A stretch of 64,000 bases of DNA from assembly GCF_000208865.1 (NCBI RefSeq), contig NC_018392.1, positions 2,004,793 to 2,068,792 on the forward strand. Direction: 5' to 3'. This document shows, in pieces, positions 5,766-54,655 of this stretch. Within the stretch, counting starts at the first letter, position 1; every line of letters starts with the position of its first letter. The DNA comes from Neospora caninum Liverpool (lineage: Eukaryota > Apicomplexa > Conoidasida > Eucoccidiorida > Sarcocystidae). The position numbers were made by a program, and so were the translations under genes. The notes beneath the pieces are model-generated. The model did no database searches and had not been told where the DNA came from. It worked only from the letters and a program-made list of their open reading frames with translations.

Positions 5766-8700
5766 ATGAAGAAGTTGCTAAGTCTCCAGCTGGGCGGGTC
5801 CGGCCACCCCACAACTAGCAGTCCCCTGCGGTTCAAATCGCCTCGAGAGCCAGGAGACAGGGGCGACGGGGATCGAGACGAGACAGCCTCGGTGACGGCC
5901 AGCGCGGCAGGTGACCTCGACTGTGTGTCTCTCTCCCGACGGTCATCCGTCCGAACGAGCGCGGTACCCCCCACGCCGCGTGGGCGACATGGCGGTAAGA
6001 AGCAAACCGCACATCTCTGCAAAATTCGACGTGGAGATACAGAAAAAGACTGCTTCAAAGGTCCAGCTTTCCCTGCCTTGCGTGTGGCGTGTTCGCTGCA
6101 ACCACGCCCACAGTCCCACTCCCTTACGGGTCAAATCACACAGGCGATTTGGATATATTTCGCTTCTAGAGCCAAAAATTTCCATGCGACTTCTACATGC
6201 ATATCCGTTTGAGAGGTCAGCAGTTCTGGATAGAGACTCCCTGCACAGAAACGTATACATATAAGGCGTAAAGGTAGCGTATGCATATATATATATATAT
6301 ATGAATGGGCGTTGGTGGGCGGTTATCGTTTTGGCATAGCAGGCACATGCGTGCGCATGAGCCTTTCCATCCTGTTTGTCTTGGTGAAACGATCCCTTTG
6401 GCGTTCTCTGTGAGTTTGTTCCTTTTCAGAAAAGCCGTGCAAATGCTGCGAAAAAGGGTGCTCAGTTGTGGGGCGGCTGCGTCAGCAGCTCCAGAATCTT
6501 CGCGAGGAGAAGATGCAACTCGAGGACATGATTTCAATGCAAACGATGACTCTTCATCAAATCGACCAGGCACGTCAGATGGGAAAAGGGAAACTCATGC
6601 CGTCTCCTTTGCCTTGTGTCTTCCACCCAAGTTCAGCTTCGCCGCATGCACATAGGGAACAGAATGAGAATTCTAGAACAAAGCATCTGTTCAAATCGCT
6701 CTCTTTGGCATCAGCGGCCACGCCCTTGATGCGTTTACATGCATACCAATCTTAACTGAATATGTCTATATATAAATCTGCTGATGTACCTATCTTTTCA
6801 TAAATATAGATGTCTATATATTTGTATATGTATGTGTAGTCCATAAGTGAGGATGTGATATATGGAGAACAGCCTGGGCGGAATGGGGAGTAGGTCTGAT
6901 TGGCGCGAGCGGCAGGAGATTCCTTTCCTTTCTTGGCGCCGGGGACCCTGTTTTGCGTGTTTAGGACGGAAAAAATATTGAAAAAATCACAGCGGAGCGC
7001 CTCGAGAGCCAGCGGAAACTGGCAGAAATTCTTCAGGATGAACGAGTAAGAAGCGAATGCCCCCTCAGGTGTCTTTACACAAGACATGAACAGGCTCTCT
7101 ACCGCAGTTGTGGATGTGAATGATGAATGTTTCGGAACCGTTTTCGATATTTTTGCGCTATCTGATTCTTTTCCGTCTCTCCGTTCCCCACCCTCTTTTC
7201 GCAGTCACATACCTCCGTTTTCTCATCCTTTTGCGCCGTGACGCCTTGCCTCTCCTGGCCCGCCGTCTCGAGCCTGTTCTTCTTCTCTCCGTGTTTCGCT
7301 GCTGGATGTCTCCTCTTTGATCACCGTTCTTCCTGCGAGTCTCTGTCTTCCCGCTCTCCAGCTTCTCTCCGTGTTTGCCGCTCGTTTTTTTCCATTTTGA
7401 ACCTTTCTCTTCTCTGCTTCGGCGTCTTCTCTTTTCGCTTCCTCAGCGATCCACCGAGGAGCGCCTCAAAGCTGCCACGGACGCCTTCAACGCTCTGCAG
7501 AGCCAGCTCGTGAGACAAAATCGATTTCCACGTTTTGCCGAAACGCTTTCGCACGCGTGCATCTGTAGCGCGGATCGCGTCTCTCATTGTCCCACTCACG
7601 CGCCGTGCACCACGAACGCCGCGTAGCGGCACATGTATCCCCTCGGCATCAGCACATCTGTCTGTCCATATCGCTGAGTTCCGTCGGCCGATCCTCTTTT
7701 TCTGCACATCTAGACAACTCCGGAAACGCTGTTCTGGAGGCTGCTTTTCCGTTCAAAAAAATGCTGCTCTCACGAAACAAAGCAGAAAAAAGGGCAACTG
7801 AGAATGGGAAAAACAGAGGCGACTCTCTCTGTGTGAGTCTGTCTGTGTTTTCTCTCTCTTCACTGGAAATGAAACTCAACGCCGCTCTTTCGTTTCCTGT
7901 CGGTGTTCGTCTGTGCAGACTCGAGCGCTGCAACAAGCGGATGAGGAGAGGCAGGCGTTGCGAGAGGAAGTTAGCAAGCAGGTAAATGCAGGAAAAGAAA
8001 GCGAACAAGATGATGAAACGCCCGCGTTAAAGACCCACCCCAGCCCCCCCATACACTTGCCGGGAAGGTTCCCATCCTTCTCTTTCTCCCCATTTGCCTC
8101 TCCTGTTCTCCTGTTTCTTTCTCTGTCTCCTTCCACTTGTGTTTTTTTAGACTGAAGAGGCGACGAGAGCCGCGGGGCTCATCTCTCAGCTTGAGACGGA
8201 TTTGGAGCTCACGAGGCGATCGCTGCTTCAGCAGGTGAGGCGCCAGCTGGCCGGACTTGGGGGCCTTCTCTTTCGTCTTTTCCCTGTATTTCTGCGCCTC
8301 TTCTAGCAGTGCTTCTTCGTCTTCTCGCCTTCCGCTCCTTTGTGTCTTGTCCATATCGAGGAGCGCACGAGAAAAACGGGGAAGAAGAGAGGAGGAAGAA
8401 AAGGCTGTCTCTCTTCCTTTTCTCTTGAGCATGCATTCCGCCTCGCCTGCCGTCTCCGTCGTCGCCGTCGCGTCCTTTCTGCTCCTCGTAGCGATTTCTT
8501 CTCCACCCTCGCCTTCCTGTTTGTTACTTCACCTGTCTCCTTTTTTCCCTTCGCTTCATTCTTGCCGTCTTCCCATCTCCTTCCCTCTATCGTCTTCCCT
8601 CTATCTTCTTTCTGGTGTATTCTATGTTATGTCTACGCCACTCCTTTCCCTCTTTTCCTTCCACTGTACCTCTCGTTCGCCGCATGCTCGGTCCCTCTTA

Positions 8701-11700
8701 TGCTGGCTGGTTCTTTTAAAAAATCTCTCTTCTTCTCGTCGTCCTCCTCCTCTCAACTTTCTCGTTTCTCTCCAGTGCGTTTCCTTTTCGCATTTCCTTC
8801 TTCGGTCTTTCTTGTCTCTCTTCTCTACCTCCTTCACGCCGTTCTCCTCCCCGCTGTCTTTAGGTTCGTTTGTGTTTTCTGTTTGAAGCCGACTCTGTGT
8901 CGGGCTGTCTGCCTGTCAGGAGTCAGAATGTGTCGCCCTGGCTGCGCCTCATTGCGTAGGACTGTTCTTCCACTCTCTTGCTTTCCACTCGGCACTTTTA
9001 GACTTTTTGGCCCGTCTCTCTTCGCTGTTCCGGCGGTTTCTAGGTTCTTCCTCCTCTTGAACTCGGGTTGTAGGTGTCCTTTCTTTGATTCTTTTTCGGC
9101 TGCTTTTCTTGCGTCTTTTCTCAGACTGCCCTAACCGCGGCCGCCGCAGCCGCTCAGGCGATTGCGGCCACGGAGGGGGAAGAGAGCGAGAAACAAAAGA
9201 AGCTGGAGGATGACATTCAGCGTCTCGAGGAGGCAAATGCATCGTTAGAGAAGGCCGTTGCTGAGGAGAGGAAGAAGCTGGAGGAAGAAAGAAAAACATG
9301 GAAACAACAGGAGGACGAGAGAGAGAAGACGCATCAGGAGGCAGTTGAGAAGGCCGTTGCTGAGGAGAGGAAGAGGTTAGAGGAGGAAAGGGAAACATGG
9401 AGAAAACAGGAGGACGAGAGAGAGAAGGCGCATCAGGAGGCAGTTGAGAAGGCCGCTGCTGAGGAGAGGAAGAAGCTGGAGGAAGAAAGAGAAACATGGA
9501 GAAAACAGGAGGACGAGAGGGAGAAGGCGCATCAGGAGGCAGTTGAGAAGGCCGTTGCTGAGGAGAGGAAGAAGCTGGAGGAAGAAAGAAAAACATGGAA
9601 ACAACAGGAGGACGAGAGAGAGAAGGCGCATCAGGAGGCAGTTGAGAAGGCCGTTGCTGAGGAGAGGAAGAAGCTGGAGGAAGAAAGAAAAACATGGAAA
9701 CAACAGGAGGACGAGAGAGAGAAGGCGCATCAGGAGGCAGTTGAGAAGGCCGTTGCTGAGGAGAGGAAGAAGCTGGAGGAAGAAAGAAAAACATGGAAAC
9801 AACAGGAGGACGAGAGAGAGAAGGCGCATCAGGAGGCAGTTGAGAAGGCCGTTGCTGAGGAGAGGAAGAAGCTGGAGGAAGAAAGAGAAACATGGAGAAA
9901 ACAGGAGGACGAGAGAGAGAAGACGCATCAGGAGGCAGTTGAGAAGGCCGTTGCTGAGGAGAGGAAGAGGCTAGAGGAGGAAAGGGAAACATGGAAAAAA
10001 CAGGAGGAAGAGAGGGAGAAGGAAACGCAGAAGGCAGTTGAGAAGGCCGTTGCTGAGGAGAGGAAGAAGCTGGAGGAAGAAAGAGAGACATGGAAAAAAC
10101 AGGAGGAAGAGAGGGAGAAGGAAACGCAGAAGGCAGTTGAGAAGGCCGTTGCTGAGGAGAGGAAGAGGCTAGAGGAAGAACGAAAGGAACGAGAGGAAGA
10201 GGACGGAAAGAGGAAGGAGCAAGAGAGAGTGGAGAGGACCGAAGTGCTGAAGAGGACCGAGGAAGAAACGGCGAGAGCGAAGCAACAAGTGGAGGAGTTG
10301 GAGAAACGGATGTGCGAACAAGAGGAGAAGAATCGCCGCCTCGAGACCGTGTTACGAGAAAAGGAAGAAAAAGAAGAAGCGTTCAAACAACAGACCGCAG
10401 AGGAGAAGCAGGCCCTCGTGAAAGAAATTGAACGGCTGACAGACCAAGTAGGTTCGAACGTTTTCAAGACATGATTTTGTTGCAGCGTTCCGCTCTTGGC
10501 GTCTCTTTGGCTTTCACTCGCTCCATCTTTGTTCGTGAATGGAAACGACGTTTTTTCGTTTTGTATGGGCCTTCTCAGGCTGCAGAAGCTGCAGGGTACA
10601 AAGACGTGGCGGAAAAGGTGAGTTTCTTCACAACGCAAGATCAGTCGATTTTGGTGTCGACCTTTCCCGCGGAGGACAGACCTAGAACGGCATCGGCATC
10701 CCTTCTTCCGCTTCACCAGAAAGCTCCTAGAGCGTCTCTCATGGACGGGTTCTGGGGGACTGCAGTCTCAAAACCACCAGACGCCCGCTGTGATTCACAT
10801 GCATATATTTGTGGCAAAAGATACATATGCTTGCATACGCCTATACATATAAATATATAAGTATATACATATATGTATATATGTGTATATATGGACATAA
10901 TTAGTGCATTCGTGTGTGGTTGTTCATTCAAATAAGAACAAACATGACGTGAGAATGCTGATGGTGCGCGTGGATGTCTCCTGGCATGTGGCGCCTGCAG
11001 ATTAAATCCTCGGTGTATTGCAATTTCCGTCGATCGTCTGTGGAACTCGGAGTATAAGCGGATGCTGAGCCGTTTCTGTCACGAGCATGAAAAGGACGGG
11101 TTTTCGTTCCTCGGCGCCGTCAAAGAGGCGCTCGCAGCCAGGACCTTGGCGGGGTAGGGCGCACCTTGTTTCTGAAGCTGAATGTTATCTTTTGGTGTTT
11201 GCTTTCCCTTTTTGTTTTCCTCAATCCTCGCCGTTTTCACTCCAGCTGAGGAAGGCGAATCAGGAGAACGGCGACCTCGAGTTGCGCCTCGAGGCCCTCG
11301 TCGACGAGAAGGTGAGAGGCGGTGCATGCAGCGGCTTCCCGTTTCTCCTCCTACAGAGTCTCAGCCTTTTGACTAACATCTGTATGTCTGTTCCAATTCA
11401 CCGTTTTTCTCGCCTTCTTTGCGCGGTCGCCTGCTCGCCAGGAAGCAGCGGTGCGCGAGGTTACCGCGGCGATGGAAAAGGCGCAAGACGAGGTGCGATA
11501 TTTGCAAGAGGAACTGCGAAGAAAGGTCCGACGCAACCTGAAGTTTCAGGAAAGAAACAAAGATTCACGCCTCGGGGCGGCGCTCAGGGCAGCAAAAAGG
11601 GGAGAGGAAAAGAAAAAAGAGAAGCGCGCGAGAGAATCCATGCAGAGGGGGAAGGGAAAACACGAGAAGCGACGAGGCAGGATGCAAGCGGAAGGGAAAC

Positions 11701-13254
11701 GCGTCTTCCAGTGTCTGCTTTAGAATCGCCTTGTCTCTCTCTACAGAGCTCGTTCTCCACATACCTCTGTAAACGACTACAAACATCTTTCCAACATGCA
11801 AAGAAACATCAATCTGTACACATGCTTACGATTGCTGTGAAAACGGCCTTTTTTCCGAGAGCGACATGCACGAACATGCATGCATATATGTATATATGGA
11901 TATACACGCATCTACATGTACGTATATATATATATATATATATATATGCTTGACTGTCTAGATGTGTGTATAATTTAGTTGTCTCTGTGATGTGTGAACA
12001 TCTGTTTTCTCAGGAGACGGAAATTGTGATGTTTAGCCAGAGTGGCGAGTTTTCAGACGAAGAGGACGAGGGGTTGCAGCCCTCGTCAGTCATAAGGCGA
12101 AAGTTGCGCCGCATTGAGAAACTCGAGGGAGAGGTGAAAACGAAGGAGGCGGCAGTCCACGACCTCGAAGAAAAAGTGAACACGCTGCTCGCCAGTCAGG
12201 TCAGAAAAAGAAACAGGATGCAGCCTAAAGAAGACACAAGAAGAAAGGAAAAGGCAGAAGACAGGCAAATGCAGAAGGAAGGAAAAGACCGGAGGAGAAG
12301 AAGCGAGAAAGTCCGTCAAACAACGACAGAATCGGGCCTCGCGTGTCTATGGGACGTGCAGACACCAAAAGTTCGAGACGAAGAGTGCGCGGCAGTGAAA
12401 GACAGCGAGAGACGAATCAGGGGTTTATCTTTTTTGAGAATCTTTGATTGGTCTGTTTCGTTTGGAAACGCCCCTTTTCCCCTGTTGATTCCCCCTGCTC
12501 TGCACAGAGCGCTGCAACGGTGAACCTCGCGGCGAAGGAGGAGGAGCTAGCAGCCGAACAGAAAAGAAACGAACAGCTTCAGCGCGATTTGGACGCACAC
12601 AGAAAAGAAGAAGAGGAGAAGAAAAAGGTGAACACGAGATGAAAGCGCTGTCGCGATACCGCCCCTAAAAGCCGCTCCGGCTCTTGTGTGCTTCGTCGTT
12701 CGTCCCGCACCACCGAGATACGTCTGCAACCAGCCTTCCATAAATATATAGAAATGTATATTTGTATTGATATGTGTGTATATGCATGCAGATGGATGCA
12801 TATATACGTGTGCGTTCTCGATAGATGAATCAGTGCATATATATATATATATATATATATTAATGCATTGTGTGCACCCGGGAGAGCGTACAACCCTAGA
12901 CTAGGAGATGAGCATGGGCTCTGTTTATCGATATGGAATGAAAAAGTCTTGTTTTTGTTGGCGCGTCGCCCTCTCTGCATGCCTCTGCATCCACCGAATC
13001 TTTCAGTTATCAGCCTGTTTCATTTCTGATCACGTTTTTGCCTCTGGAACTTTCTTTCCCTTCTTTTGGATTTCTTCGCACACAGAGCGTGGAGGCTCTC
13101 GAGAAGGAAAACTGTGCTTTGCAAGAAAGGAACGTAAGTCTCGATTTCCGTGCAACGCAATTCTGCAACTGTCACCACCTGAGGTCTCCTGTTCATCGTA
13201 CTCCACATGTATTAATCTATTTTCCTGTATTTTTATCCGCGTATCTACATATAT

Positions 13255-13294
<40 letters not shown>

Positions 13295-16200
13295 CTGTAT
13301 ACCTGTCTTTCTATCTCTAAAAACTATCTGTCTCTATCAGCCTATAGCGACCTATTTCTCTATCTATGTGTACATTTATGTATATATATATATATATATT
13401 TAAACTACATGGATCGATATTTGCGATGTGTAAATTGTGAGATGTTATGGGTGTATAGTCGTCTGTTTCTAGGCAGGTTATTCGTGACATTCTTTTCCAT
13501 CTGCATTGTGAACAGCCTTTCTTCTTGCTGTATTGTTTCATGTCTCCAGACCTTGCCTCGCATTCTTGCCGATTCCCTCGTCTCCAGGATCTCTCATGTC
13601 CTGTCTCTCTTTCTCTTGCACAGGCCTGTACAAAGTGTCTCTCTGTCTCCTGCGAGTTTTTTTTTCATTTTTTCCTCCGTGTTCCTCTTCTCTATATATC
13701 TCTGCTCTTCTCCCTTCTATCCTGACCTGTCTCCCTCCCCAGTGTGTCCTTTTTTGTCTCCTTTTTCGTGTTTTTTTTCATTTTTCCCTGTGTGTGTCTT
13801 TCCCGAGTTTTGTCCAGTTGGCTCTTGCCCAGCAACTCGCTGACGAGGGGACGAAGGCAGCAGACGCCGAGGCGAAACTGCATGCAGCCGAAGAGGCCTT
13901 GAAGGCGGCACGAGAAGAAGCCTCGGTAGGCGAGGGAAACTCGAAAACTTAATGAAACTCGAAGACAAAACAGTAGAAGAAAGAGGAAAATAAGTGTGTG
14001 CATAGCGCCCTTCTGGCTGCTTGTGTGAGTTGAGGCAACGCCCCGAGGTATCTCGACGAAGGGAGGGCTTTGTGGAGATGAATGCTCAGATGAATTCTTT
14101 GCATTTTGATATGCTTTTTCATGTAGTTCCACCAGCCTCTCCGAATTGTTTTCTGCAGGCGCGAGCAGCCGAGATGCGAATTCAGGATGACGCAGAAATC
14201 CAGAGGCTCTCGACGAAGCTGGCGGAGGCGCAGAATCAACTCAGAGATCAGGTGACCTATCCACGTTTCCGCGTTTCTTTATCTGTTTCTCTGTCACTCC
14301 CTTTCTCTCGCTTCTTCTCGCTCTCGTTCACTCTTTTTATCGTTTGCTTCCCGGCATCCAGTTTCTCCCCACTCTCTTTCCCTTTCCCACGCTCTGTCTG
14401 CTGCACTTTTTCGGCGCCTTCAATTTCTCTCCGCACCTTCTGCTTCTGGCCTTCTTCCCTTCGTCCTCTCTCAGTGTGACTCATTCTCTTTTTTCTCTCA
14501 ACTCTCGCGTCTCGACTGGCCAGGGGTTTCTTTCTGTCGCTTCCGTACGATATCCACCCTTCGACTTCCGTCTCATTTCCGCGTTCGTTTTTCCGCAGAT
14601 TTCCGCGGAAAGCGCTTCAGCATTTGCGGACCGCCAGGAACTCCTTGAGAAGACGGTGAGGTTTGCGCGCTTGCGCGTCTTCGGGAATTCATCGACCGCT
14701 CCTTTTTTCCGTCACTGCCTCTCACCGGAACGCGTCCAGTACAACCCAATCCGATTTCCGATTGTCTTGTCGCGCGCGTCGTCTCGCCTCGCTTCGCTCC
14801 TTTTTCCTTCTCTGTTTCCTCTATTTTCTCCTCTCCGACTGTCTTTGCAGCGCGTCCGGGCTCTTAGCCGTTTCCCGCGTCTTCTGCGAATGATTCTCAG
14901 TGTCTTCCCTGCTCGTTTCCCTTCTCATCTTTCGTTTCTCTTCTCTTTTCTCACTCTTTTCTGTCTCTCTCCCCCGGTTCCGTTCTTTTCTTTTTCTAGG
15001 GGCGACTGACGATGGACCTGGCGGAGAAGACTGAGGAGGTTGCTCAGCTCCAGCAGAAACTTCGGCGGCTCGAGAAGCTGCCGCAAACCGCAGAGACTCT
15101 CAGCGTCCCCCCCACTGTACGCCCCTGCCTCGTTTTCGATCTTTTTCGTCTCTCAGAGGGGATTTCCGAGAGACATGCTTCCTCTCCTGTTCGGTTCGTT
15201 TCCGGTGTCTTGCCACTGCGTTGCTCGTCTCTGTCTCACTCGAGCACTGGACTTCAACACGCGCACTAAACTTTGTGGATTTCTTCCTCGTCTTCACTGT
15301 TTCTCCGATTCGTCTTCTCTGCTCGTCTCTCTGTTTTCGGTTGCGCACTCTTCATCCTTTTCCTGTTTTCCTTCACTTTCGTTCTCTTTGTTGTCGCTTC
15401 GTGCGCTGTTCCCGGAACCTCGCAGAACGCAACCGGAGACGCCCTCGTCGACGAGAATGTAAGCCCTTCGTGTGTGTTTTCCCGGTTCGGCCCCTTTTCT
15501 GGGAGACGGCGTGCAATCCATCTCGTCTCTGCTTCGCGTGGACCCTTTCACGCTGTCTTTCCCTGTCTCTCTCTCCTCTCTAGGCGCGCTTGCGCCGCGA
15601 CATCGCCACCAAGGACGGTCAACTCGCCGAGCTCGAACAGAAACTTAGCGAGGCCGAGCAGGAGGTGAAACTGAGAGCTGTAGGAAAGGAAAAGACGGAA
15701 ACGGAACGTGAACGGGAAAAGCGATAAGCACGTGTCTTTTCCTCCTCGATTTTGCATCCCTCTTCTCTCTTTCTCAATCGCTGTTTCCTCTCATCGCCTA
15801 CCGTCGTCGCCGAAAAAGGGGGAGGGGTTCTCAGGTCGCCATCTCGCTGCCTGAATCTTGAGTTTCGCTTTTCGCTTCGCAGGTGAACTGTGGAAAGCTC
15901 CACGTTTTCCTGAAAGGAAAGGGTGGCTCAACCTTTGTGGCGTTTCCCATTAAAAGCTGTGTTCTCGTTTTGTCTTTTTTCAGCGCTCGAGAGCCGGTAG
16001 CGAGTGGAAGGTCGTGACTCTCGTACAGACCAACGTAAGCTTCTTCTCTTTTTCGTTTTCCGTTTTCACAATCCTTCCTTCTCTTTCTCCTTTTTCACAA
16101 TCCTTCCTTCTCTTTCTCCTTCTTCACAATCCTTCCTTCTCTTTCTCCTTTTTCACAATCCTTCCTTCTCTTTCTCCTTCTTCACAATCCTTCCTTCTCT

Positions 16201-19200
16201 TTCTCCTTCTTCACAATCCTTCCTTCTCTTTCTCCTTCTTCACAATCCTTCCTTCTCTTTCTCCTTTTTCACAATCCTTCCTTCTCTTTCTCCTTCTTCA
16301 CAATCCTTCCTTCTCTTTCTCCTTCTTCACAATCCTTCCTTCTCTTTCTCCTTTTTCACAATCCTTCCTTCTCTTTCTCCTTCTTCACAATCCTTCCTTC
16401 TCTTTCTCCTTCTTCACAATCCTTCCTTCTCTTTCTCCTTTTTCACAATCCTTCCTTCTCTTTCTCCTTTTTCACAATCCTTCCTTCTCTTTCTCCTTTT
16501 TCACAATCCTTCCTTCTCTTTCGTGGCGAGCACCTCTCAGCGGCGAGTTGTTTCAATTCGCTTCTCCTCGTGTGGGCTCGCGTTTCTCCGGGCGCTCGCG
16601 TCTCAGCCGTTTTCCTCTGCTCCCAGCCGCCCGATCGTTTTCGCTCTCTTTTGCTCGACACGGTCTGCATGCATGCGAGCCGGGGGAGCGTGTTTTTCGC
16701 GCGCGCAGGCCGACTTGGTTACGAAGCTGGCGAAGGCTGAAGAAGACCTCGCCGCGGAGCGCCGCGCCGGCACTCAACAGAAGGAAGAGCGAGAGAGGAT
16801 GGCCCAGCAACAGGTGAAGATTCAAGATCGAAAGAGGAAGGAGCAGAGAAAGGGATGAAAACGAAGAGAATGAAATATCAATGGCGATGAAACGTATTTG
16901 AGTAACATAACAACATGGAAGATGAAGCTGCATTACGTTCAAAAACTTCACACTGGATACGTTTTCGAGACAGGCAGAGAAGGAGAACAGGAAAGAAAGA
17001 GATGGCGAGAAGGAGAAAGAGAAGGAAAGGAGACAGGGATGGTGGGTGAGAAGGAGAGGGAGAAGGATCGAAAGGTCGAGTGAGAGGCACGGGCGAGGAC
17101 AAAAAGCACATTTTGGGAAGCGCAACAAGAAGAAACGTCTTTGCAAGAGCGAGAACTCACAGAGAAACATCTGCTTGCGAGCGAAAGTGCAGCGAAGAAA
17201 AGGACAGCAAGTGTTTCTGTCGTCCACCCGTGAGCCCTCTCCCCCCTTCCGCGTGTCTGGGCTCTCGTTTGGAAAACTCCAAGTCTTGCTTCGTCACTCT
17301 CTTCCTTCTCTTTTGCGTGTGCCGAATTGGTTTTCCCAGAAAGACCAGGAGGAGAAGATTCACGACCTCGTGGCGACAAATGTACGTCGTCCTTATGGCT
17401 GCGACGCGTTCCGTCGACATTTTTCGAACGCACCTCTCTTCTCTCTCCTTTTCTTCCTGTTCTTCCCCTTTTTTCTCTCCGCCTCGCCTTCTCCCCCCGG
17501 CGTGCCTCCTCTGCGGCCTCCTCGCTAGCCTCTCTCCCCGCGATTCTGTCTCTCTTTTCGCGAGTTCCTGTCTCCGTTTTCTCCGCTTTTTCCTCTCCAG
17601 GCGCAGCTTGTTGACGACTTGGCCGCGAAGGACGCGGCAGCGAGCGAGGCGACCAGGCAGCTGGTGCTCGCCACAGAGAAGCTGAAAAACCTCGAGGCTC
17701 GCCAGGTGAGTCGCGCCGGGGACGCAAGGAAACACCTGGACCAGAACACGCAGTCTCGACGCGCTTCGCGGTGTCTAGATAGCGCGAAAACGCGGAAAAG
17801 AGGCGGTCGTTTTGATCTCGCGACCTGGCTGCTTCGTGGTTTCCTCCGGTTTCGCGCGGTTGTTGAATCTTCCCCAGATTCGATTTTAGAGACGAAAAAG
17901 CTGACGGCAAGAAACGCAAAAAACCTACCGGTGGGGTTCCGTCGCCCCTCTCTGTCTTTGCACATGCGTGTTTTCGTGCGCAGGTGAAGGCAGGCGAGCA
18001 GGCGTCGAAGATAAACGAATTGAAGACGTCCAACGTAGGTCGTCTCTTGGCGAGACAGGGAAAGCATGCGCGCTCCGCTCATGTTTGTCTCATCAGGCAC
18101 ACGTGCCTTTTCTCCCGTGATTCTCGATCGGAAACATCACACACGCTGCGATGTGCGGCCAGCCCCGTCTCTCTCTTTTTTCCGAGATCTATACCAGTCG
18201 TCCTACTCGCTCTGCTGAGAGTTTTGGAACAAACGACAGGCAGTCAGAGAGCGGACTTGTCTGCGACGCGCATGCAGTGAAGTAGGACACGTTTCGCCTC
18301 TTGGGCCAGCTGATCGATGTCTCTCTCTCTGTCTCTAGGGCAGACGACGAACAAACACTCCACTTGCTGACATGGAGTCTGTCTAGAAACGGCGTCAGTC
18401 TCGCGGGTTCGTTTCTGCCCAACCGCCGAGTCTGTTTCGCGGCTCTTCACACCGCCTGCAGGCGTGTGTGGATGCAAACATGTATGCATACATATACATA
18501 TATATTTGCATATCCTTAAATGCATATATATACATATATATACATATATATACATATATATACATATATATAGGTATATGCATACTAATACATATATATA
18601 TATATATATATTAATGCATATATATATATATATATATGAAGAGAGGGACATGTGTGTTACAACAGGCACGGGCGAGGAAGTGTGGTGACGCCAGCTCGAG
18701 TGTGTGTCGTTTTGGAGTCGTTCAGGAAACTCTGAGCGAGAAAGTGCAGGAGCAAGAGGCGGCGATACGCGCACTTCACGAGGAGGCAGAAACGCGGAGG
18801 CGAGAAGCGGAAAAGGCCGCGGCGGTAGGCGAGGAGAAGCGCTCAGCCAGGGAGAGAAGGGAAGAACTAGAAGAAAACAGAAGCATACAGAACTGAGGTG
18901 TCTGAGTCGTTTTTTGCACCCCATGCGTGGCGACAAATGTGGAAACGGAACAGCTGGAAAGAGGTGATGGATCTTTGAAGCGCGCGAGTGAAAACGGGTA
19001 GGCATCCGCCAAGAAGAAGGGGAAAGAAGCGTCGAAGAAGAGAAATCATTTTTGGAGGATGCTTTTTTTGACAGGACCTCGAGGCCAAGAATCGGGACAT
19101 TGCAGAAATAAACGCGACGCACGTAAGCAGATGCAATCGCTCTCTCCTGAACCTTTTCTGTCTGTGTGGAGCTGTCTCGTCGATCTACACTTCTGCCACA

Positions 19201-22200
19201 CGCTGCGAATTCCAAATGTATATTTGTCTCGGCCTTTTTGTACGACGCTGGACTTCCATATCTGTGTGCGACTGTCTGTTTATCTGTCGATGCTTTCGCT
19301 TCTTTCCTTCGTCTGTTTTCGCGCTCTTCCTCGTGGTGACTTTTCCTCTTCTCGCTTCCTCCCCCTGGTCGAGTTTTTGTGCTTCCGATCTCTCTCGTTT
19401 CCCGCTCGCGGTCTCTGCTCTGTCTTTCCTCTCTCTTTCTCTGGGAGTCTTCTTCTCTCATCTTGGGTGCGTGAAAATCGTCTTTCCTTCCAGGAGAAGG
19501 CTGTCGATACGCTGACGAAGAAGGAGGCAGAAATGGAGCGCGCTGCTCAGCACGCCCGCGAGGTCGAGGCATCTCTCCGAGAGTCTCTTTCTGCCGCTCA
19601 GGTGGGACGCGAGCCTCTCTTTCGAAATGTGAAACGGCGCAGCGGCGTCCCAAGGAGGCGAGGAAAAGGCGAGACGAAAAACTCTCGCTGCGCGTGCGCT
19701 TCGGGAAATTAAGAAAGCAAAGAGGGCGTCGCATGCAAGAGAAAACGCTTTCCTTCAAATCCTTTTCCGTTCCATACGTCACAAAGCATGTGCTCTCTGC
19801 TCTAATCGCGCAAATGCAGTTTCCTGGTCATGACCGCTCCGGTGTATATACATGCGACTGTTCTTTCCTTTGGGTTCCTGCAAGCGCACACGTGTTTGTA
19901 TGTGTTTGTATAGAAATACGTATATATATGTATATATGCATTTGAGTTCTGGAAGCTCGCCGCGCACATTCAACTGCGTAGGCGAGGGAGAGGCGAGTTT
20001 GAGGGAGGCGCGCAGATTTTGTTCTTGTCTGTCCAGGCGCGACTAGAGGAGACGGAGAAGAAAATTGTCGAAATCGAATCGCACTATCGAGACGCGAGAG
20101 CGGCGGAAACTCAAGCGAAGGACGCAGCACTCGCCTCTCTGCGCTCTGAGCTCGCCAGTCTGAAGGCCCAGCTCGCCGGCGCGCAGAAAAAGCAGAACGT
20201 AGGTGACAGAACCCCGTCGATTCACCCGGCTTCGCTGTGCGTTTTTTGTTTCTTCCGCATCCAAACGGCATGCCTCACATCAGACGATTTAAGTATTTGT
20301 TTCTCTGTCCAAAAACAAACCGCATGCACCCAAACATATATGCGTATATGCGTGGAGATTTGGATACACATGTATATATATAAATATATATAAATATATA
20401 TAAATATATATAATCATATATAAATATATATATATATATATATGAGTATATGTATATGTGACAGTGGGTGTTTTTTTCCGGTGTACGAAAACGTGATGCA
20501 TCCTCACAAACACATATATACACATTTAAATGTAAACCTCGCTGCAAATATATAAATATGCATGTGAGCATGCATGCAGGCAAAAGGATATGTTACATTT
20601 GGAAGTGTATTCTGTGTTCACTGAGAGGCGGTTTTTTGCTCGAAGACACTCTGTCATTTTTTCATGTTTTTTTTTCGCCACAGGCCGCGCATGCGGAAGC
20701 CGATGAGAAGGTTCAGCAGCTCCTCGCGGCAAATGTGAGGAAACGGCGAATTCACCTCTGCACATGCGTTGCTCGACGCTTCTGTTTTCGGATTTGCATA
20801 CGCAGACTACTGACCCATAATCTGCTTTATACAGACATCTCCACACATGGATGCCTGAGTTTCTTGACAGACAGATATATATAAAAAACTATATAGATAT
20901 TTAGGTAATCAGATAGAGAAATACACAGCTGTGTGGTCTGAGAGTAAAGAGATGCCTAGACGTATGTGCAGGTGCGTCCTCACATGTAATATGTATACGT
21001 GTGTCTACATCTCGATATACATATGTGGAGAGAGAGATATGGATATGCACACTGTTGTCTGCGGTTCTGTAAAGAATGTGTGGCGTGCAGAGCTCTGTGT
21101 TTCTTGCTGACAAGTGTCGAGATGCGTCTGGGCCCACATGGTGGTGTTGTGAATTTTCTGGTTTTCCGACTCTCTCGGCAGAGTGGGCTGGTCACAGAAC
21201 TTGCCGAGAAGGAAGCTCATCTGGCTGACGTGAAGCACCAACTGGGAAAGTTGGAAGCGAAAGCTGCAAGATGCTCTGAGGTCCGTTCACGCTCGCTTCA
21301 GTCTCAATTGGAAAGGTGTTTCGCTGTCTTACAAAAGCATCCCGCTCTCTCTTCTCCAGGCCACTTCTTTCCCAACCATACACGGACTTGCTTCTCTCCG
21401 TGTTTTATCGTAAAAACGACTCTCTGTCTGTCTTAAGAATAGATTTGTGCTGGTACATGTACAATATGCATATACACGAAGAGATCTATGCATGTGCATA
21501 TCTCTATACAGGTGCTTGTGTATGTGCATAAAAGAGAGAGAAGCTGAAAGCGCGAACAAGAGGTACATGGATGATTAGACAGACGTGCGTGTGAACATAA
21601 ATATATATATATATATATATATGGAGAGAGAGATGCATGCGTGGTCTTGCGTCGTTCGTTTTCTTTGGTTTCCCTCTTTTCTTCTTAGCCTGACGTCTCT
21701 CCCAGTCTGGGTTTTTCCAGTACTCGCACCTCGCTCCATGACCACCAAACGTATTCCTCCACAGATTCTTGCGAGCATAAATGTGTGCATGTACGCAGTA
21801 CCGCACATCGTGTTTTTCCCTTCGCTTTCTCAACTGGGCTCTGTTTCTCGGAAAGATTCACGTTTCCTTCCTCTCTAGAAACTTTTTCTCGCTCACACTC
21901 TGCATCTGCAGGCGGTTTCGCCAGAGTCGAGTGCTGACGAGGCGATGGCGCGCCTCCTCATCACAAACAGTGAACTGATGAACCGGCTGGCTGAAAAGGA
22001 AGAAGAATCGACGCACGCCGCGCAGCTTCTGGCGACGCTGAAGTCGGAAAACGAGATGCTTCGGTGTCGAATCGAAGACCGGGAGCGCCAAGAACGCGAG
22101 GACGCGAGAGAAGACGAGAGAGGGAAGAACCTCCACAGCGAGCGAGAAAGCGAGAACGTCACGGCGCTCCGCGAACACTTGGAGGAAGCCCGAGTCCTCC

Positions 22201-24842
22201 TCGCACTCGAGAAGGAGAAACGCGTTCAGCAGAATCTGAAGCTAAAGCGGCAGCTCGCCTCGGTCGAGGAGGCGCGGTGAGGGTTTTTGAAAAAGAACAA
22301 GAGGGGAAGAACCGGAATGAGAAAAAGTTGAAGATGAAACGACCGGCTATACGCAGGAGTGCATCTGGGGGCCGGATGTCTCCGAGGCCGTCTTCTCAGC
22401 GGCAGGGAGTCGAGCGAAAGAGAGAAGCGAAGAAAAGAACCCGAGGCTGGGGTTGGGAGGCTAGAGAAACGTGAATTGCATATAGACGATAAGACACCGC
22501 ATAGGGGATGATGGTGTGGTGGGTTTTTGGAGGCAGAAACAGCGACGCAAATGGGAGAGAGACGGGGGATCTGTGCAGAACAAGAGGGACTGAAAGAACC
22601 TTCAGCAGTCTGACCATCGTGTGAAGAGAAAGCAGGCGCGAACGCCAAGAGAAAAATCAAGGGCAAAAGATGAGAGATCAGCAACTGACGTCTCTCCGAA
22701 TCCTTTGCTTCGTCGCTCCTTCGAGAGCTTTCCTACCCCCTTCTCGCCCTTCCGCGACGCATTTTCTCCCCCGTTTCCTCGTGAATCTCCTCGTTTTCTT
22801 TTTCTTCAGAAAGAAACTGGAAGAAGAACGCGACGAAGCACTCGCTGCGTGGGAGACGCACCAATGCTCGACGTCGCCCGCGCCTTCAGGTCGCCGGCGA
22901 AGCCCAGAACGAAGCCAGACGCCTTCAGAGAGAGAAAACGTTCCAGAGACCGGAGCCAGCGGGGACGCGGGTCCCGGGGTGCCGCGTCTCGCGCGTTTCA
23001 AGCGCGAAGTGGAGAGACTCCGCGAGGCAGGCGCCGACATCAGCCCGCTGGAAGAGCGGTTTCTCCTCCGCAAGATGGAGCGACATCCGACAGAGGCGGA
23101 AGCGACGCTCGCGATTCGCCGCGCAGAAGTCGAGATGCACGAGAAGGTGGCCGCGGGACGTGGCGGAAAACATCCAGGAAGCTGGTGGCCAAACGACGGA
23201 ACCAGTGTGCAGGCGAAACCTCCTGGGACGCGCCTCGCCGCGCTGAAAGATCGCGAGAACGACCGAGTTGAGTTGACAGCTGCAGAGATGGCTTTCTTCG
23301 GAGGCGACGGGCCCTCTGTTCTGAGTGTACTGGAGCACTCCACTCCGCCTGAAAGCTACTTGGTACGAAAAAGGAAGAAACTCGGAACTTTCTTGGCGCG
23401 TACACCCGCCGCTGTTTCCTTCTGGACTCCTGGCCTCTCTTGAGTTGTTTTCCCCTCTCTCTGTTCTCGTCTCGGGTTCGTCTCGCGATGGGGAGGGGGG
23501 ATGTTCCCCCCGGTCTTTCGCCATGGGGTCGCATTCCTCTCGGGTGCGCATGCACGTCGAGGAAATTCGTTTTTCCAAGTGCCTCGGAAACGAATATGGC
23601 TTGGGAGCAAAAGCGGCGCACGGAAAGATCTGCTTCTCATCCCGCGCCGTCTCTCTTGTGTTCGAGCTCGCTTCGGCGTGTGTGTGTGTGTGTGTGTGTT
23701 AGCAACCCCGCTGTCGCTGTGTCTGTTTCGTACACGTCGTGCTCGCACACCGAGCGTTTTTGTTTGCATCTCTGCGACTCTCGTGTGGTTCTGCCGCGCT
23801 TTCACACAGAGACAGTCTAGCCCCCACGTTCGTCTGGGGGGTCGGGTCAGGAGAGCCCCCTTCCTTTGCCCCGTATCTGAAAATCGTGTTTCCACTGGTC
23901 ATCCGAGTCTTGTCGTTCCATTGGACTTTGCGCCTCCGCTCACTTTTGTTTTTTCAGGCTCTTCCGTTCGCTGCGCCTCCTCACGCGCACCTCCAGTCTT
24001 CCTCCTCTCGTCCTCGCCTTGTCTCCCCTTTGTCTCCTTTCGCGGGTTCTGCGGCGGCGTCGCCTCACCCTTCGGATTTCCTCACTTCGGTGTCTCTGTA
24101 TCGGCCAGAGTTGTGGCGAGAGGCTTCAGCAGCTTGCCTGACGTTCTCAGAGCCTCAGCCGTTCGAGTTGTCTCCTTCGAGGCTGCCGCCGCTTCGACAG
24201 ACTCCCGAAGAAGCGATGCGGAACCCCTTCCCGCTGATTCATACCCTGGCCACAGTCTACAAAGGCCACCCCCGTCCGTCGCGCTGTACGGCGAACCGGA
24301 ATTCTTCCTCGTCGACCAGTGCGTCGCGGGTGAATTCCCCCGCTTCGCTTCAGCCTTTCTTCGCACCGCTGCCGCTCTCGCGACCGTTTGCAGCGAGAAG
24401 AGCGAAACGCGGCGACTGCGTGCGGAACGGCCCGATCGCAGTCGCCTCGCCGCACGGAAACGCGGAAAGAGAGAACGGAAACAAGCACAGGGAGAACGGC
24501 GGAGAGACAGAGCGCGAACGGGCGAGAAGACCTCTTGCGGAGTCTCCAACAGAGACGCCGTTTGCGGCAGAGAAGGGAGAAGGAAATGGAGAGCAAAGAT
24601 ATGGACAAGACAGAGACGAGGAAGATCAAGGCTTTCACACAAACAGTTTAGACTCTGACAGCCCGGGATCGGGAAGGCAAGAGACACCGGAAGGCAAAGG
24701 GAAGAAGAGGCGCGGTTTCCAGCGACTCTTTCCGCACAGAGACTCCGAAAAAAAACCAAAGGGAAGAGGCCTCGGTGGGCGCGTTGCGGGCATCATCTCA
24801 GTCAGTCGAACGAACTCTTCAGGCCGAGACTGGAAGCGGTAG
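5766..24842 (+). CDS. Large coiled-coil protein, 33 exons
   Basis: Exons: 5766-5994, 6430-6569, 6965-7045, 7447-7509, 7919-7981, 8151-8234, 9125-10447, 10579-10617, 11246-11311, 11442-11525, 12014-12199, 12508-12627, 13086-13133, 13818-13925, 14159-14251, 14599-14655, 15000-15116, 15426-15458, 15584-15664, 15984-16034, 16709-16813, 17340-17381, 17601-17705, 17984-18034, 18726-18824, 19075-19122, 19494-19601, 20037-20198, 20684-20734, 21182-21280, 21912-22276, 22810-23362, 23958-24842. The protein has about 1,912 residues. The first 76 are a basic Ser/Thr-rich head. Residues 80-1480 are almost entirely Glu/Lys/Ala/Leu coiled coil, with a 33-residue repeat at about 260-560. The last 300 are a Ser/Pro-rich disordered tail. 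No catalytic motif, membrane segment or signal peptide is visible, so a scaffold role (cytoskeleton, centrosome or conoid) is only inference. Every intron from exon 2 to exon 31 is phase 0. The start was chosen because GCC ATG A follows the CT-rich leader and its exon donor is in phase with exon 2. Confidence 0.85.
9248..10138 (+). repeat. 99-bp coding tandem repeat (33 residues), nine units
   Basis: Units begin at 9248, 9347, 9446, 9545, 9644, 9743, 9842, 9941 and 10040. A decaying tenth starts at 10139. Each encodes [15 protein letters not shown] followed by a [20 protein letters not shown] half. Copies differ by only a few bases, so the array expanded recently or is kept alike by conversion. 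Thirty-three residues equal three hendecads, which suits a continuous coiled coil. The last full units (from 9941) carry [13 protein letters not shown] variants that grade into unique sequence. Confidence 0.95.
13256..13290. repeat. (TA)n microsatellite in an intron
   Basis: About seventeen TA dinucleotides in the intron between exons ending 13133 and starting 13818. A shorter TA tract follows at 13380-13399. Confidence 0.9.
16067..16521. repeat. 29-bp pyrimidine-rich intronic minisatellite, about 16 copies
   Basis: Direct head-to-tail copies of a 29-base unit starting CACAATCCTTCCTTCTC, with period 29 from 16067 to about 16502. Copies differ mainly at one T/C position before the TTCACA. It lies in the intron 16035-16708 of the coiled-coil gene. 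Apart from the CACAA core the unit is pure pyrimidine on the coding strand. There are no spacers, so it is not a CRISPR array. Confidence 0.96.
18480..18638. repeat. TACATATATA and (TA)n satellite in an intron
   Basis: Several copies of the ten-base unit TACATATATA (about 18520-18575) followed by two pure TA tracts, all in the intron 18035-18725. Confidence 0.9.
20371..20443. repeat. TAAATATATA decamer repeat
   Basis: Five to six copies of a ten-base unit ending in a pure TA tract, in the intron 20199-20683. Confidence 0.9.
23677..23699. repeat. (TG)n microsatellite
   Basis: Eleven TG dinucleotides in the last intron (23363-23957) of the coiled-coil gene. Confidence 0.9.
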
Positions 24843-27082: not shown

Positions 27083-30000
27083 CTAGACGAGGAGCACGGC
27101 GTTGATGCAGCCATCCAGTTCGGGGTTGTTGGTAACCTGGGCATATTTGGCTGCAGAAAAAAGAAACAGTTTGTGAAAGAAGTGTGAAGAACCGACCCTT
27201 GGCAGACCCCCGGAGAGCGCTGCTGGCCACTCGACGAGAAGCACAGAAGACAACTTCCCCGGAAAGCAACGCACAAACCGGATACACGGAGGCGCACCCT
27301 GTCAACCCTATGCGTCTCTGTTGCAACCTCCAAGTCGCCATCTCCAGACTACCGCAACCGCAGAGGTCTCCTGTCTCTTCATCCCATATATATATATATA
27401 TATATCTGGATATCTATATCAATATACGAAACGCAATACACATAGAAGTATTAGACCTATGTGTACAACGTGTACATATATATAATGTATTTGCACGGGA
27501 TTAAACAAAGGCAACATTTATGTCTGTATCCAGTAAGCACATATTTCCATAGATGTGTACTGTAAATACACATGAATACACAGCTAAAAAAGCTTGCATA
27601 CATATACGTACACAGATATGACCAATAGGCATTTATGTGTATATGTATACGCACGGCGTAGAGAGGTATACGCGTATGGAAGTCTGTGCAAAAAAGGGAC
27701 TGTCTCTTTCCAGGTATATCCGCAACAAGGTCGAAAGGCAGTGTTTCCGAATTCGTACCCCATACGACTTTGCCGGTTTGAGTGACAAGGCCCAGTTCGC
27801 TCACGTTGACCTCGATGATCGTTCCTGCAGAGAAGGAGAGGCGACAAAGGCGCGTCCCGATTTTGAGACGCGCTCCAGGGCGACCCAAGGCGCGATTTCT
27901 GTCTTTTTGCGTGGATAGACAGCCCGGACGCCGTGTGAGTCGTGTGTGGATTTCCCCTAGGTTTTTTGCGTACCCTTTGTGATGACGCCGAGGGAAGTGT
28001 AGAGGTGAGACTGGGGATTCTTCTTCACGCCAACGATGTCCAAGTGGAAGGTGGTTTTCAACTCGGGATGCGTGACATGCGCCTTCTTGAAGCGAAGACC
28101 CGTGGGCCGAATGTACCTCTCGAATTTGGGCGGTTTCCTCGTGAAGTCTTCTCCGACGAAGCACACTTTGTTCACCACGCGCTTCCACATCTTTCCTGCA
28201 TGCACGAGCCGCCGACAGAGAAGAAAGGAAAGCTGAGAAAAGGACCAGTCCGGAACCAACGCGCGTTTAGGTGCACTCTGGGGGGCCGCCCTCGAGAAGC
28301 GCAAGCCCCGCAGCTGCGACACGTACGGTCCCATTCCTCGCCATGCTCGACGTTTCTCCGGAGAACGAAATCCAAAAAGGAAAGGCGAGGATTCGGAGGA
28401 GAGAGGGGACACGACGAAAAGCTTACTTTTGCGCTTTCCACTGCGGAGAACCTTGAACATCTCGTCTTCGGTCATTGCTTTAACTTTCGGGAGAGGCACT
28501 TGCCATTTTCCCGCCTTCTCCTTTCGCTTTTGTTTCACCATGTTGCTGAGGACTTTGGTGCGTTTCACAGCCTCACGGTCGAGCAGGTACGCGGGGACTG
28601 CGCCCTCGGGCGCCTGTTCCGGTTCCTTGCTCTTTGCATCCTTTTCTTCAAAGTGCTTGAGAGTCTTCTTCATCGTCGCCTTCTCCACGTAGCGCTTCTT
28701 GTTGAACAACTTGGCGCGAATGCCGCGAAGGCGACGCGCCTGCTTCGACAGTTTGTGCGGCTCGCGCGCCGCCTTCTTGCGTCTGGGAAAGGCAAGACAA
28801 GCGAGAGAAGCGAGGTAACAAACACGGGAGAGATGGAGACACGAAGAGACGAAAGTGGAGGAAACTCGCGACTCTGTGGAGAGGTCGAGAGGGAAGAGAG
28901 AAGAAAGAGACAAGAGAGAAGGAACTCAAAGACAGAGAAGTACGAGAAACGGGGTCAGAGAGGAAAGGAAGGTGAGAGGATGAAAGGAACTGAAGAGGAG
29001 GGAGAGGAAGTCGAGGATGATGGAGGGTACAAGAAAGAGGAGAGAACGAAATGAAATAAGGTAGGTGGGAGACAGAAAATGAAAAACGGGGACGATACAC
29101 AGAGGGGGAAAGAGGGAAGCAAAGGAAGGTACAGAGGAGGCAGCAAAGAAAAAAACTGGAGAGAAAAAAGACGTGAGAAAGGTCGGTAATGACAGGAAAT
29201 AAGTTAAAATCCAAGGAACGACAGAAGGAACTGAGGACAAAGGGAAGCAAGAGACACAGAGATACGGCAGAGGAAAACAGAAAAAGAAGGAAAGTAGGGG
29301 CGGAAAGAGAAGCAGACGAGGACAAGGAAGAGGCAAAAGACGAACGGAAAAGGAAGAACAAGACCAAGTAGAATAAACAGGAGNNNNNNNNNNNNNNNNN
29401 NNNNNNNNNNNNNNNNNNNNNNNNNNNNNNNNNNNNNNNNNNNNNNNNNNNNNNNNNNNNNNNNNNNNNNNNNNNNNNNNNNNCAAGAAGCAGATCATAG
29501 GAGTAGACAGGCATATAATGAGGAGAATGATATGAGAAAGAGTATGTGACGAAGCATAACAAAGAGAAGGAGTTCAATGAGAATGTGAAGAAGAACAGGG
29601 AGAAGTGAGATCAAGGTATGAGAACGTGAAGAGAAAGGGAACGAGAAGAAGGAGAAGAACAAGGAGAGGGAGAGAAGGAGAACGACAGGGAGAAGGCGAA
29701 GGAGAACAAGGAGGAGAACAAGGAGAAGGAAAATAAGGAGAAGGAGAACAAGGAGAAGGAGAACAAGGAGAAGGAGAACAAGGAGAAGGAGAATGAGGAG
29801 AAGGAGACCAAGGAGGAGAAGAAGAAGAACAGGGAGGAGAACGAGAAGAAGAACAGGGAGTAGAACGAGAAGAAGAACAGGGAGTAAAACGAGAAGAACA
29901 ACAGGGAGTAGAACAAGAAGAAGAACAGGGAGTAGAACGAGAAGAAGAACAGGGAGTAGAACGAGAAGAAGAACAGGGAGGAGAACGAGAAGAAGAACAG

Positions 30001-53000: not shown

Positions 53001-54655
53001 GAACGGTTTCTGTCTTTGTCGACGAAGGGAGGGAAAACCCCGAAACCAGCCTGAGCGAGACAATTATCTTCCCAGCAATCGATCGTCTCGCTGCATGCAA
53101 GCTCCACGGCCTCCCCCCTCTCCTCTCCCGGGCACCTGCCTCAGAACGTCCAAGACGAAAACGCACGCACCGCGTTTCTGCGCTTCGACTGGATCCACTG
53201 GCTGTCCGCGGCCCACTCCTGGAGAAGATCCGTTTCGACAGTGTCGACGAAGAGGGAAAGAAAAAGGAAAAAGTTGCAGAAATCGATCTGGCCGCACCCC
53301 GTCGACAGCCAGGGCCCTGCGGGGCTCGGCGCCTGCTCGGCGAGGACGGCGTACCCCTGAGAGAAACGAGGAAGGAAACAGAGCGACAGCGTAGACTTCC
53401 TGGACACGCCAAAAAAGGCGATGTACCAGAAACCCAGCACAGGACGCGGCGCGCTGTCCCCATCTTTCTCGGGAAGGCGCACAGAGACAGCGTGAGGCGA
53501 GCGCGCTGTCGCGAGCGCGTGCGCGTTCGAGCCCAGAGCCCTGCTAGGCTCCTCGCTCTCTGGACATCTCGCGTCTCTCGCGTTCTTCTTCTCTTACTTG
53601 CAGGTACTCCTTGTAGCAGGTCATGAGGAGATCGAGGCCGCCGTCGGCGATGTCTGTGGCCTTTGGGTGTGGTAGAAAGTCGTTTCCAACCATGAAGCAG
53701 AAGAGCACGTAGTCGTCGATGATGCGTTCGCGTTCTCGCGGATAGAGAAGAGAAGGGCGGAGACTCGGACTGCCCAGGCTCGCGTCGAAGACGATCTCTG
53801 CGGGCGCGGCGCCGTCCGCCCGCGAAGGCTGCTCTTTCTCGTTTGAGCTCGATTTCAAAGCAGGCGCCGCGCGGAGAGCGACAGCGGCAAACTCCAGAAA
53901 GAGGTACTCTCGCAGGAGGGAAATGTGGAGAAGCTGAAGATTCTCGCGCTTCGTCAGCAGCTGAGAACGCGCACGGGGCGAGACAGAGAGAAACGGCGAG
54001 TGGGAGATTAAGCGAGGAAGCCGAGAAACGAGACAGACGCGCCGGAAAAAAGGCGAGACACGGGAGCGATCGGGGACAGGAAAGAAGCAGGAGGGCGCCG
54101 GAGCGAAAGGCCACGCCGCCCGTAGAGCATGCAGAAGAGAGAAATGCAATTTAGGACAGAAGAGAGAGAAGAGCCAGGCACCTCTCACAGCTCTCAGAAA
54201 AACAGACGAGAAACTCACTCGGTCTTGCGGACCCTTCGTGACAGCTTTTCCGAAAACCACTTCCTCTCGAAGAAGACAAAAGTGCGGCTCGTGCGACGCC
54301 AGTGCTGAAAAAAAGAAAACAGAGACACACAGGAGACACAAACGGAGACAGTGCAAAAAGGGCCTTGAGGGCCGCCGACCTGGACCTTCTCTCCGCTTCC
54401 CAGCAACCTCCATCTTTAAAAAAAATACCGGAACCGCCTTTCATACGCAAATGCCCTCAAAACATCGAAACGCAAAACTGTGGCAGCTAATCTACTACCT
54501 TACAAAAGCACATATATATATATATATATGTAGACAGAGATATACCGATACGTATATACATGTAAATGTGCATTGTCTAAATAGACATATTTACAGGTAG
54601 TGCGTACAGATTTGAAAGCATATGTACATGCATCTATGGATATCCATATGCATGC

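Follow-up and report, generated by a model that had tools for sequence, protein, structure and literature searches.

What limits the growth of a coiled coil, the reading frame of its gene or the heptad register of its protein? This question can be asked of a single gene of Neospora caninum Liverpool, which lies on the plus strand at positions 5766-24842 of the window, that is, of the whole stretch of 64,000 nucleotides analysed here (contig NC_018392.1, positions 2,004,793 to 2,068,792, assembly GCF_000208865.1). An initial annotation, made from the sequence alone, had described positions 13086-22276 of the window as a coiled-coil gene built by serial duplication of a two-exon module. Our analysis makes it likely that a stretch of the predicted rod, comprising at least eight units, arose as a unit of two exons and about 50 residues, flanked by phase-0 introns, was duplicated repeatedly.

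The sequence between 5000 and 27500 of the window was read for an exon model, and 33 exons, joined by eye, form a single open frame of 1912 codons with its only stop at the end. Introns 2 to 30 and intron 32 are in phase 0, while intron 1 is in phase 1 and intron 31 in phase 2 (30 of 32 in phase 0); the earlier statement that all introns are in phase 0 holds for introns 2 to 30 and intron 32 and fails for introns 1 and 31. In the model, intron 2 (6570-6964) has a GC donor, CAG|GCACGT. The short exons among E13-E30 have 16, 19, 11, 17, 14, 17, 16 and 17 codons, and the exons directly following them 36, 39, 27, 35, 35, 33, 36 and 33 codons. Junctions after exons of at most 19 codons in E13-E30 were assigned to class A (n=8) and junctions after longer exons to class B (n=10).

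The proposed alternation of short (11-19 codons) and long (27-39 codons) exons is thus present, with two breaks where both neighbours are long (E14/E15 and E27/E28). All seven donors listed in the initial annotation are at the bases given there, and most short exons end in asparagine (Asn) or histidine (His), as claimed, with E16 ending in threonine (Thr); the long exons were said to end mostly in CAG|GTG or GAG|GTG, which is the case for just five of ten.

A roughly common motif, LxxxN|xxLxxxLAxKE, is seen at the eight class-A junctions. As controls we used class-B junctions and random windows, both from the same gene. Class-A windows from -8 to +14 scored 18.46 per pair, whereas windows drawn at random from this coil averaged -7.52 (standard deviation 2.60); none of 5000 random sets reached this value, and neither did any of 1000 random sets with optimised register. 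For class-B windows of the same extent the score was -4.69 per pair, which was reached by 515 of 5000 random sets. Exons were more similar to exons of their own length class than to those of the other class, the difference being reached by one of 5000 label shuffles; this comparison, named beforehand as the refuting test, came out in favour of duplication.

A profile of class A led to the same distinction. When each class-A junction was left out in turn, its ranks were 91, 6, 4, 1, 1, 7, 3 and 1 among about 750 positions (median 3.5), compared with a median rank of 193.5 for class B; for 300 random sets of eight, the median ranks averaged 372 and the lowest was 62. Across the whole protein the best five non-training positions were 786 (the E11/E12 junction), 1331 (inside E31, without an intron), 623 and 258 (both inside E7) and 696 (the E9/E10 junction). 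The probability of two exon junctions among the top five is 0.0015, and the number is still two among the top ten (P 0.0066). Since the profile matches the E9/E10 and E11/E12 junctions, the unit seems to reach past the range reported initially, and some copies seem to lack the inner intron. The copy without an intron in E31 is closest to the E29/E30 unit, with 15 of 41 residues identical, which is the highest identity between units. The exons and sites concerned are as follows.

5766-24842, plus strand: whole gene, 33 exons from E1 (5766-5994) to E33 (23958-24842), 1912 codons; partly reproduced by a gene finder.
9125-10447, plus strand: E7, 441 codons, holding a 99-base-pair tandem repeat array.
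9236-9238, plus strand: Asn codon of a class-A-like motif without intron in E7; profile position 258, fourth non-training.
10331-10333, plus strand: Asn codon of a class-A-like motif without intron in E7; profile position 623, third non-training.
11246-11311, plus strand: E9, 22 codons, ends LEALVDEK, class-A-like junction (Lys); residue 696, fifth non-training; heptad d.
11442-11525, plus strand: E10, 28 codons (exon model).
12014-12199, plus strand: E11, 62 codons, ends VNTLLASQ, class-A-like junction (Gln); best non-training profile position; heptad a.
12508-12627, plus strand: E12, 40 codons (exon model).
13086-13133, plus strand: E13, short, ends QERN, class A, weakest member; leave-one-out rank 91.
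13818-13925, plus strand: E14, long (exon model).
14159-14251, plus strand: E15, long, 31 codons, second consecutive long exon, alternation broken (exon model).
14599-14655, plus strand: E16, short, ends LLEKT (Thr), class A; leave-one-out rank 6.
15000-15116, plus strand: E17, long (exon model).
15426-15458, plus strand: E18, short, ends LVDEN, class A; leave-one-out rank 4.
15584-15664, plus strand: E19, long (exon model).
15984-16034, plus strand: E20, short, ends LVQTN, class A; leave-one-out rank 1.
16709-16813, plus strand: E21, long (exon model).
17340-17381, plus strand: E22, short, ends LVATN, class A; leave-one-out rank 1.
17601-17705, plus strand: E23, long (exon model).
17984-18034, plus strand: E24, short, ends LKTSN, class A; leave-one-out rank 7.
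18726-18824, plus strand: E25, long (exon model).
19075-19122, plus strand: E26, short, ends INATH, class A; leave-one-out rank 3.
19494-19601, plus strand: E27, long (exon model).
20037-20198, plus strand: E28, 54 codons, second consecutive long exon (exon model).
20684-20734, plus strand: E29, short, ends LLAAN, class A; leave-one-out rank 1.
21182-21280, plus strand: E30, long (exon model).
21912-22276, plus strand: E31, 121 codons, class-A motif without intron (Asn codon 21966-21968); second non-training profile position.
22810-24842, plus strand: E32 and E33, the C-terminal 479 whole codons (stop excluded), after the coil; no Pfam family (exon model).

The introns were also predicted with a crude gene finder, in which all phases were allowed, the splice weights were textbook values and codon usage was derived from 51 long open reading frames (18 of 20 fetched 10-kilobase stretches; the two around weak coil matches were excluded). 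The setting that agreed best with the exon model gave 35 introns, 32 of them in phase 0, and had 28/32 donors, 26/32 acceptors and 21/32 whole introns in common with the model; seven of the eight class-A introns were recovered at both ends. Over seven settings, 4, 12, 17, 21, 19, 14 and 12 of the 32 introns were found exactly, and phase 0 accounted for 64 of 108 introns at the loosest setting and 18 of 22 at the strictest. At the best-agreeing setting both ends of intron 20 were missed. Most of this intron is occupied by a pyrimidine-rich minisatellite (16065-16522; 29-base-pair unit, 15.8 copies, 98% matches), which is open in the reading frame of E20 and may be the cause of the miss.

The place of the junctions in the coil was determined by a simple scoring of heptads, with the last residue masked before the class-A and class-B junctions and before the E9/E10, E11/E12 and E12/E13 junctions. 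With three of the four penalties, heptad position a immediately precedes all eight class-A introns, and with the strictest it precedes seven of the eight; position a makes up about 15% of residues. At the same three settings the class-B introns follow b, c, d, g, a, a, f, e, b and f. The E11/E12 junction and the site in E31 are after position a too. In the computed register, the heptad spacing with a core a residue at the junction has Asn in six of the eight class-A units and Thr and His in the others. The register is broken 7 to 10 times between the sites of E13 and E31, about once per unit. From one class-A or class-A-like site to the next there are 90, 56, 86, 50, 44, 49, 52, 49, 107 and 52 residues; seven of these ten distances fall within 44-56 residues, and the range of 44 to 107 contradicts growth in fixed steps, which had been proposed. 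Of the proposed growth without frame damage, the part concerning the reading frame stands, while the heptad register is broken about once per unit.

A reading without any duplication of units would be that an ordinary coil was selected for leucine-zipper spacing, that phase-0 introns fell near Asn by chance and that the choice of exons by eye favoured phase 0. Coils are inherently repetitive, Asn prefers position a in this one, unit similarity does not decay with distance, and almost every genome has an excess of phase 0, according to extracts of PMC3488318; all this is compatible with such a reading. Against it, the similarity of class A was reached by none of 1000 register-optimised sets of windows (-8 to +14) from the very same coil, the class-B junctions of the gene have no such similarity, the profile is high at junctions it had not seen, and the gene finder, with all phases allowed, still gives mostly phase 0. 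We consider an ordinary coil very unlikely as the full explanation.

Under the explanation that we favour, duplication of a two-exon unit, each unit would begin in a class-B intron, comprise a short exon, a class-A intron and a long exon, and end in the following class-B intron. Units would be added by recombination between class-B introns, which would leave the reading frame intact because both flanks of the unit are in phase 0. Where a unit is not a multiple of seven residues long, its addition would leave a break in the register, perhaps mostly near the class-B joins. Most units would be centred on a zipper-like segment with Asn in the core position a, and E31, perhaps also E7, would hold a unit that lacks the inner intron, for which intron loss would be the simplest cause. 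In agreement with this scheme, the flanks of the units are of equal phase, and the units, aligned by their exon boundaries, resemble each other more than expected by chance.

The donors bear on whether the class-A introns were copied along with the exons. G precedes the donor at one of eight class-A and eight of ten class-B junctions (P 0.015), and AG at none of eight and six of ten, respectively (P 0.013). A possible compensation of the weak exon side by G at +5 was non-significant (12 of 12 donors without G at -1 vs 15 of 20 with it, P 0.13). The consensus of protosplice sites for intron insertion is (A/C)AG|G, as given in extracts of PMC3488318. As class-A donors lack the exon-side AG, we prefer inherited class-A introns to repeated insertion at such targets.

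The corresponding alternative is that the coil first grew by repeats without introns, through in-frame duplication of DNA, and that introns later entered many of the units independently, each at the same point. Growth without introns is visible in E7 of the same gene, where an in-frame array of 99-base-pair units (9248-10185; 33 residues per copy, 9.5 copies, 94% matches) is found, and the class-A motif occurs without an intron in both E7 and E31. The same source, as far as its extracts go, adds that recently gained introns need not occupy protosplice sites (PMC3488318), which weakens the argument from donors. Such late insertion would, however, take at least eight events that agree in both heptad position and phase, at sites unlike the (A/C)AG|G targets, and none of the introns of this gene share a clear common sequence that would mark a mobile intron family; according to these extracts, 5 to 10% of the positions that distant species share are due to parallel gain (PMC3488318). 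Late insertion appears quite unlikely to us.

Besides the freedom of young introns from protosplice sites, several observations weigh against duplication of a two-exon unit. It rests on an exon model in which all exons are predicted. Register-optimised random sets reached the similarity of class A in 1/1000 cases when the window was extended to -12 to +20, in 4/1000 for the 14 residues after the junction alone and in 75/1000 for the eight residues before it alone; the signal thus requires the whole junction. The eight residues before class-B junctions are mildly alike as well (119 of 5000 random sets reach their similarity). E13 ranks 91st when left out, the short exon E8 (13 codons, outside the range reported initially) is absent from the 30 best profile positions, and the E9/E10 junction follows heptad d. 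E28, considered as a fused unit without intron, scored negatively with nine of ten other unit windows and found no support in the one register tested. In E8-E31, 11 or 13 of 25 Asn residues are at position a, depending on the setting, with scores that slightly favour Asn there; because Asn favours this position in the coil anyway, Asn and position a are not independent facts. Register breaks are nearer to class-B junctions than expected just marginally (P 0.048, 0.048, 0.051 and 0.085). Finally, units that lie further apart in the gene are no less similar (r 0.078, with a value at or below this in 3277 of 5000 permutations), and matches between introns are short, the best being 32 bases at 97% between introns 12 and 24.

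The short intron matches are taken overall for AT-rich and pyrimidine simple repeats; the suggested comparison of introns yielded short matches and no clear common sequence. Given these weak matches and unit identities of at most 15/41 without distance decay, the duplications look old, with their order lost. The marks of recent tandem copying, neighbours or introns that are more alike, were not found, and old copies need not carry them. Of the proposed tandem duplication, the two-exon unit is retained, as class-A junctions look homologous and class B scatters; its serial order has left no trace.

Copying may also have involved a larger block of several units, duplicated once or twice, rather than single units. 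Neighbours are not generally most alike, and E11/E12 scores highest with E20/E21 and E29/E30, as such a block might lead one to expect; yet inspection by eye of the pairwise similarities between 11 windows, each of 41 residues, showed no consistent offset of best matches, which is a weak argument. We regard block duplication as unlikely, and repeated duplication of single two-exon units remains our preferred reading.

The gene appears to combine two modes of growth, by exon units and by the intron-free 33-residue array of E7. When two units of this array were used as a query, the sole match in the genome at E 0.01 was the array itself (17 candidates scored). For the parts searched, the gene as a whole is apparently single-copy: no second copy was found at E 0.01 or better among the best candidates scored, with E1-E6, two E7 repeat units, E8-E25, E26 to the middle of E31, E29-E30 and E32 covered (E33 and the remainder of E7 and of E31 were left out). 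If orthologues differ by whole units, the gene would be a direct test case for length change in apicomplexan cytoskeletal tethers. No description of this exon pattern in an apicomplexan coil was seen among the matches listed for open-licence papers, by titles and the beginnings of abstracts; the coronin paper PMC3203266, in the part available, concerns exon duplications of other kinds.

In searches with the protein, neither the first 294 residues nor the 1251 that follow E7 matched a Pfam family at E 0.001 or better (the query omitted most of E7), and there was no relative among Protein Data Bank sequences for the 965 residues from E8 on (threshold 0.001) or for an approximate copy of the C-terminal piece (threshold 1). 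The coil begins near residue 90, as judged by eye. A Cys-rich stretch (6430-6569) directly precedes it and is possibly a lipid-attachment or metal site.

Other features of the window include a tRNA-Phe (GAA) gene called by two programs (2700-2773), a 30-base-pair tandem array (31645-31920; 9.3 copies, 95% matches) within an 843-codon open frame without Pfam match, and, on the minus strand, an open frame at 27957-28913 with a Ribosomal_S8e match (2.1e-21), which we take to resemble NSA2. Two further open frames on the minus strand (50194-54413) match XRN_M, of the 5'-3' exonuclease family, and are probably one gene.

The class-A segments can be compared with the GCN4 zipper, in which a core Asn at position a favours parallel two-stranded pairing. 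Most of them have, as in the GCN4 type, a hydrophobic residue at a, L at d, Asn at the next a, L at d and a hydrophobic residue at a; unlike in that type, the segment is repeated here along a long rod. By analogy with the core-a Asn of GCN4, we predict that the protein forms a dimeric coiled-coil rod whose strands are parallel and in register. Asn at position a is also described for plant bZIPs in extracts of PMC4599898. One could further imagine a molecular ruler, in which whole zipper units of 50 residues are gained or lost by recombination between phase-0 class-B introns, rod length changes stepwise within this parasite lineage, the core Asn of most units resets the pairing register and errors are dumped at the joins; we think this unlikely to be the full account.

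The closest studied kind of protein is the much-studied RNG2, a coiled-coil tether of the conoid and apical polar ring of Toxoplasma, which has 2595 residues in T. gondii, with the coil at about 550-2150 (extracts of PMC3990729 and PMC12671742). These extracts give NCLIV_019030 as the Neospora orthologue (PMC3990729, PMC12671742). Like RNG2 as described there, our predicted protein is large and forms a coiled coil, its sequence is repetitive and charged, and its ends lie outside the coil; unlike RNG2, it has 1912 residues and a coil from near residue 90. Identity with RNG2, considered because that protein too is a large coil of a coccidian, has no support from size and coil placement, both of which differ from those given for T. 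gondii RNG2 in these partial descriptions. A role as scaffold or tether of the parasite cytoskeleton is possible, though we would put it somewhat short of an even chance.

Intermediate-filament and lamin genes, as far as partial descriptions of them go, also encode coiled-coil rods in which intron positions are conserved relative to the structure; in those families the conserved positions are seen by comparing different genes, whereas here the same place recurs within one gene. Fibrous proteins that grow by phase-0 exon duplication are known from animals. In fibrillar collagen genes, with exons of 54 base pairs, each unit is one exon of fixed size. The coil gene resembles them as a gene for a fibrous protein grown from phase-0 exon units that code whole structural repeats, and differs in its two-exon unit, its variable lengths and in that only the inner junction is fixed within the structural repeat. 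Genes are known to grow by duplicating phase-0 exon units, and this gene is a variant of that mode and not an unprecedented case; particular to it is that the inner junction is locked while the outer junction drifts.

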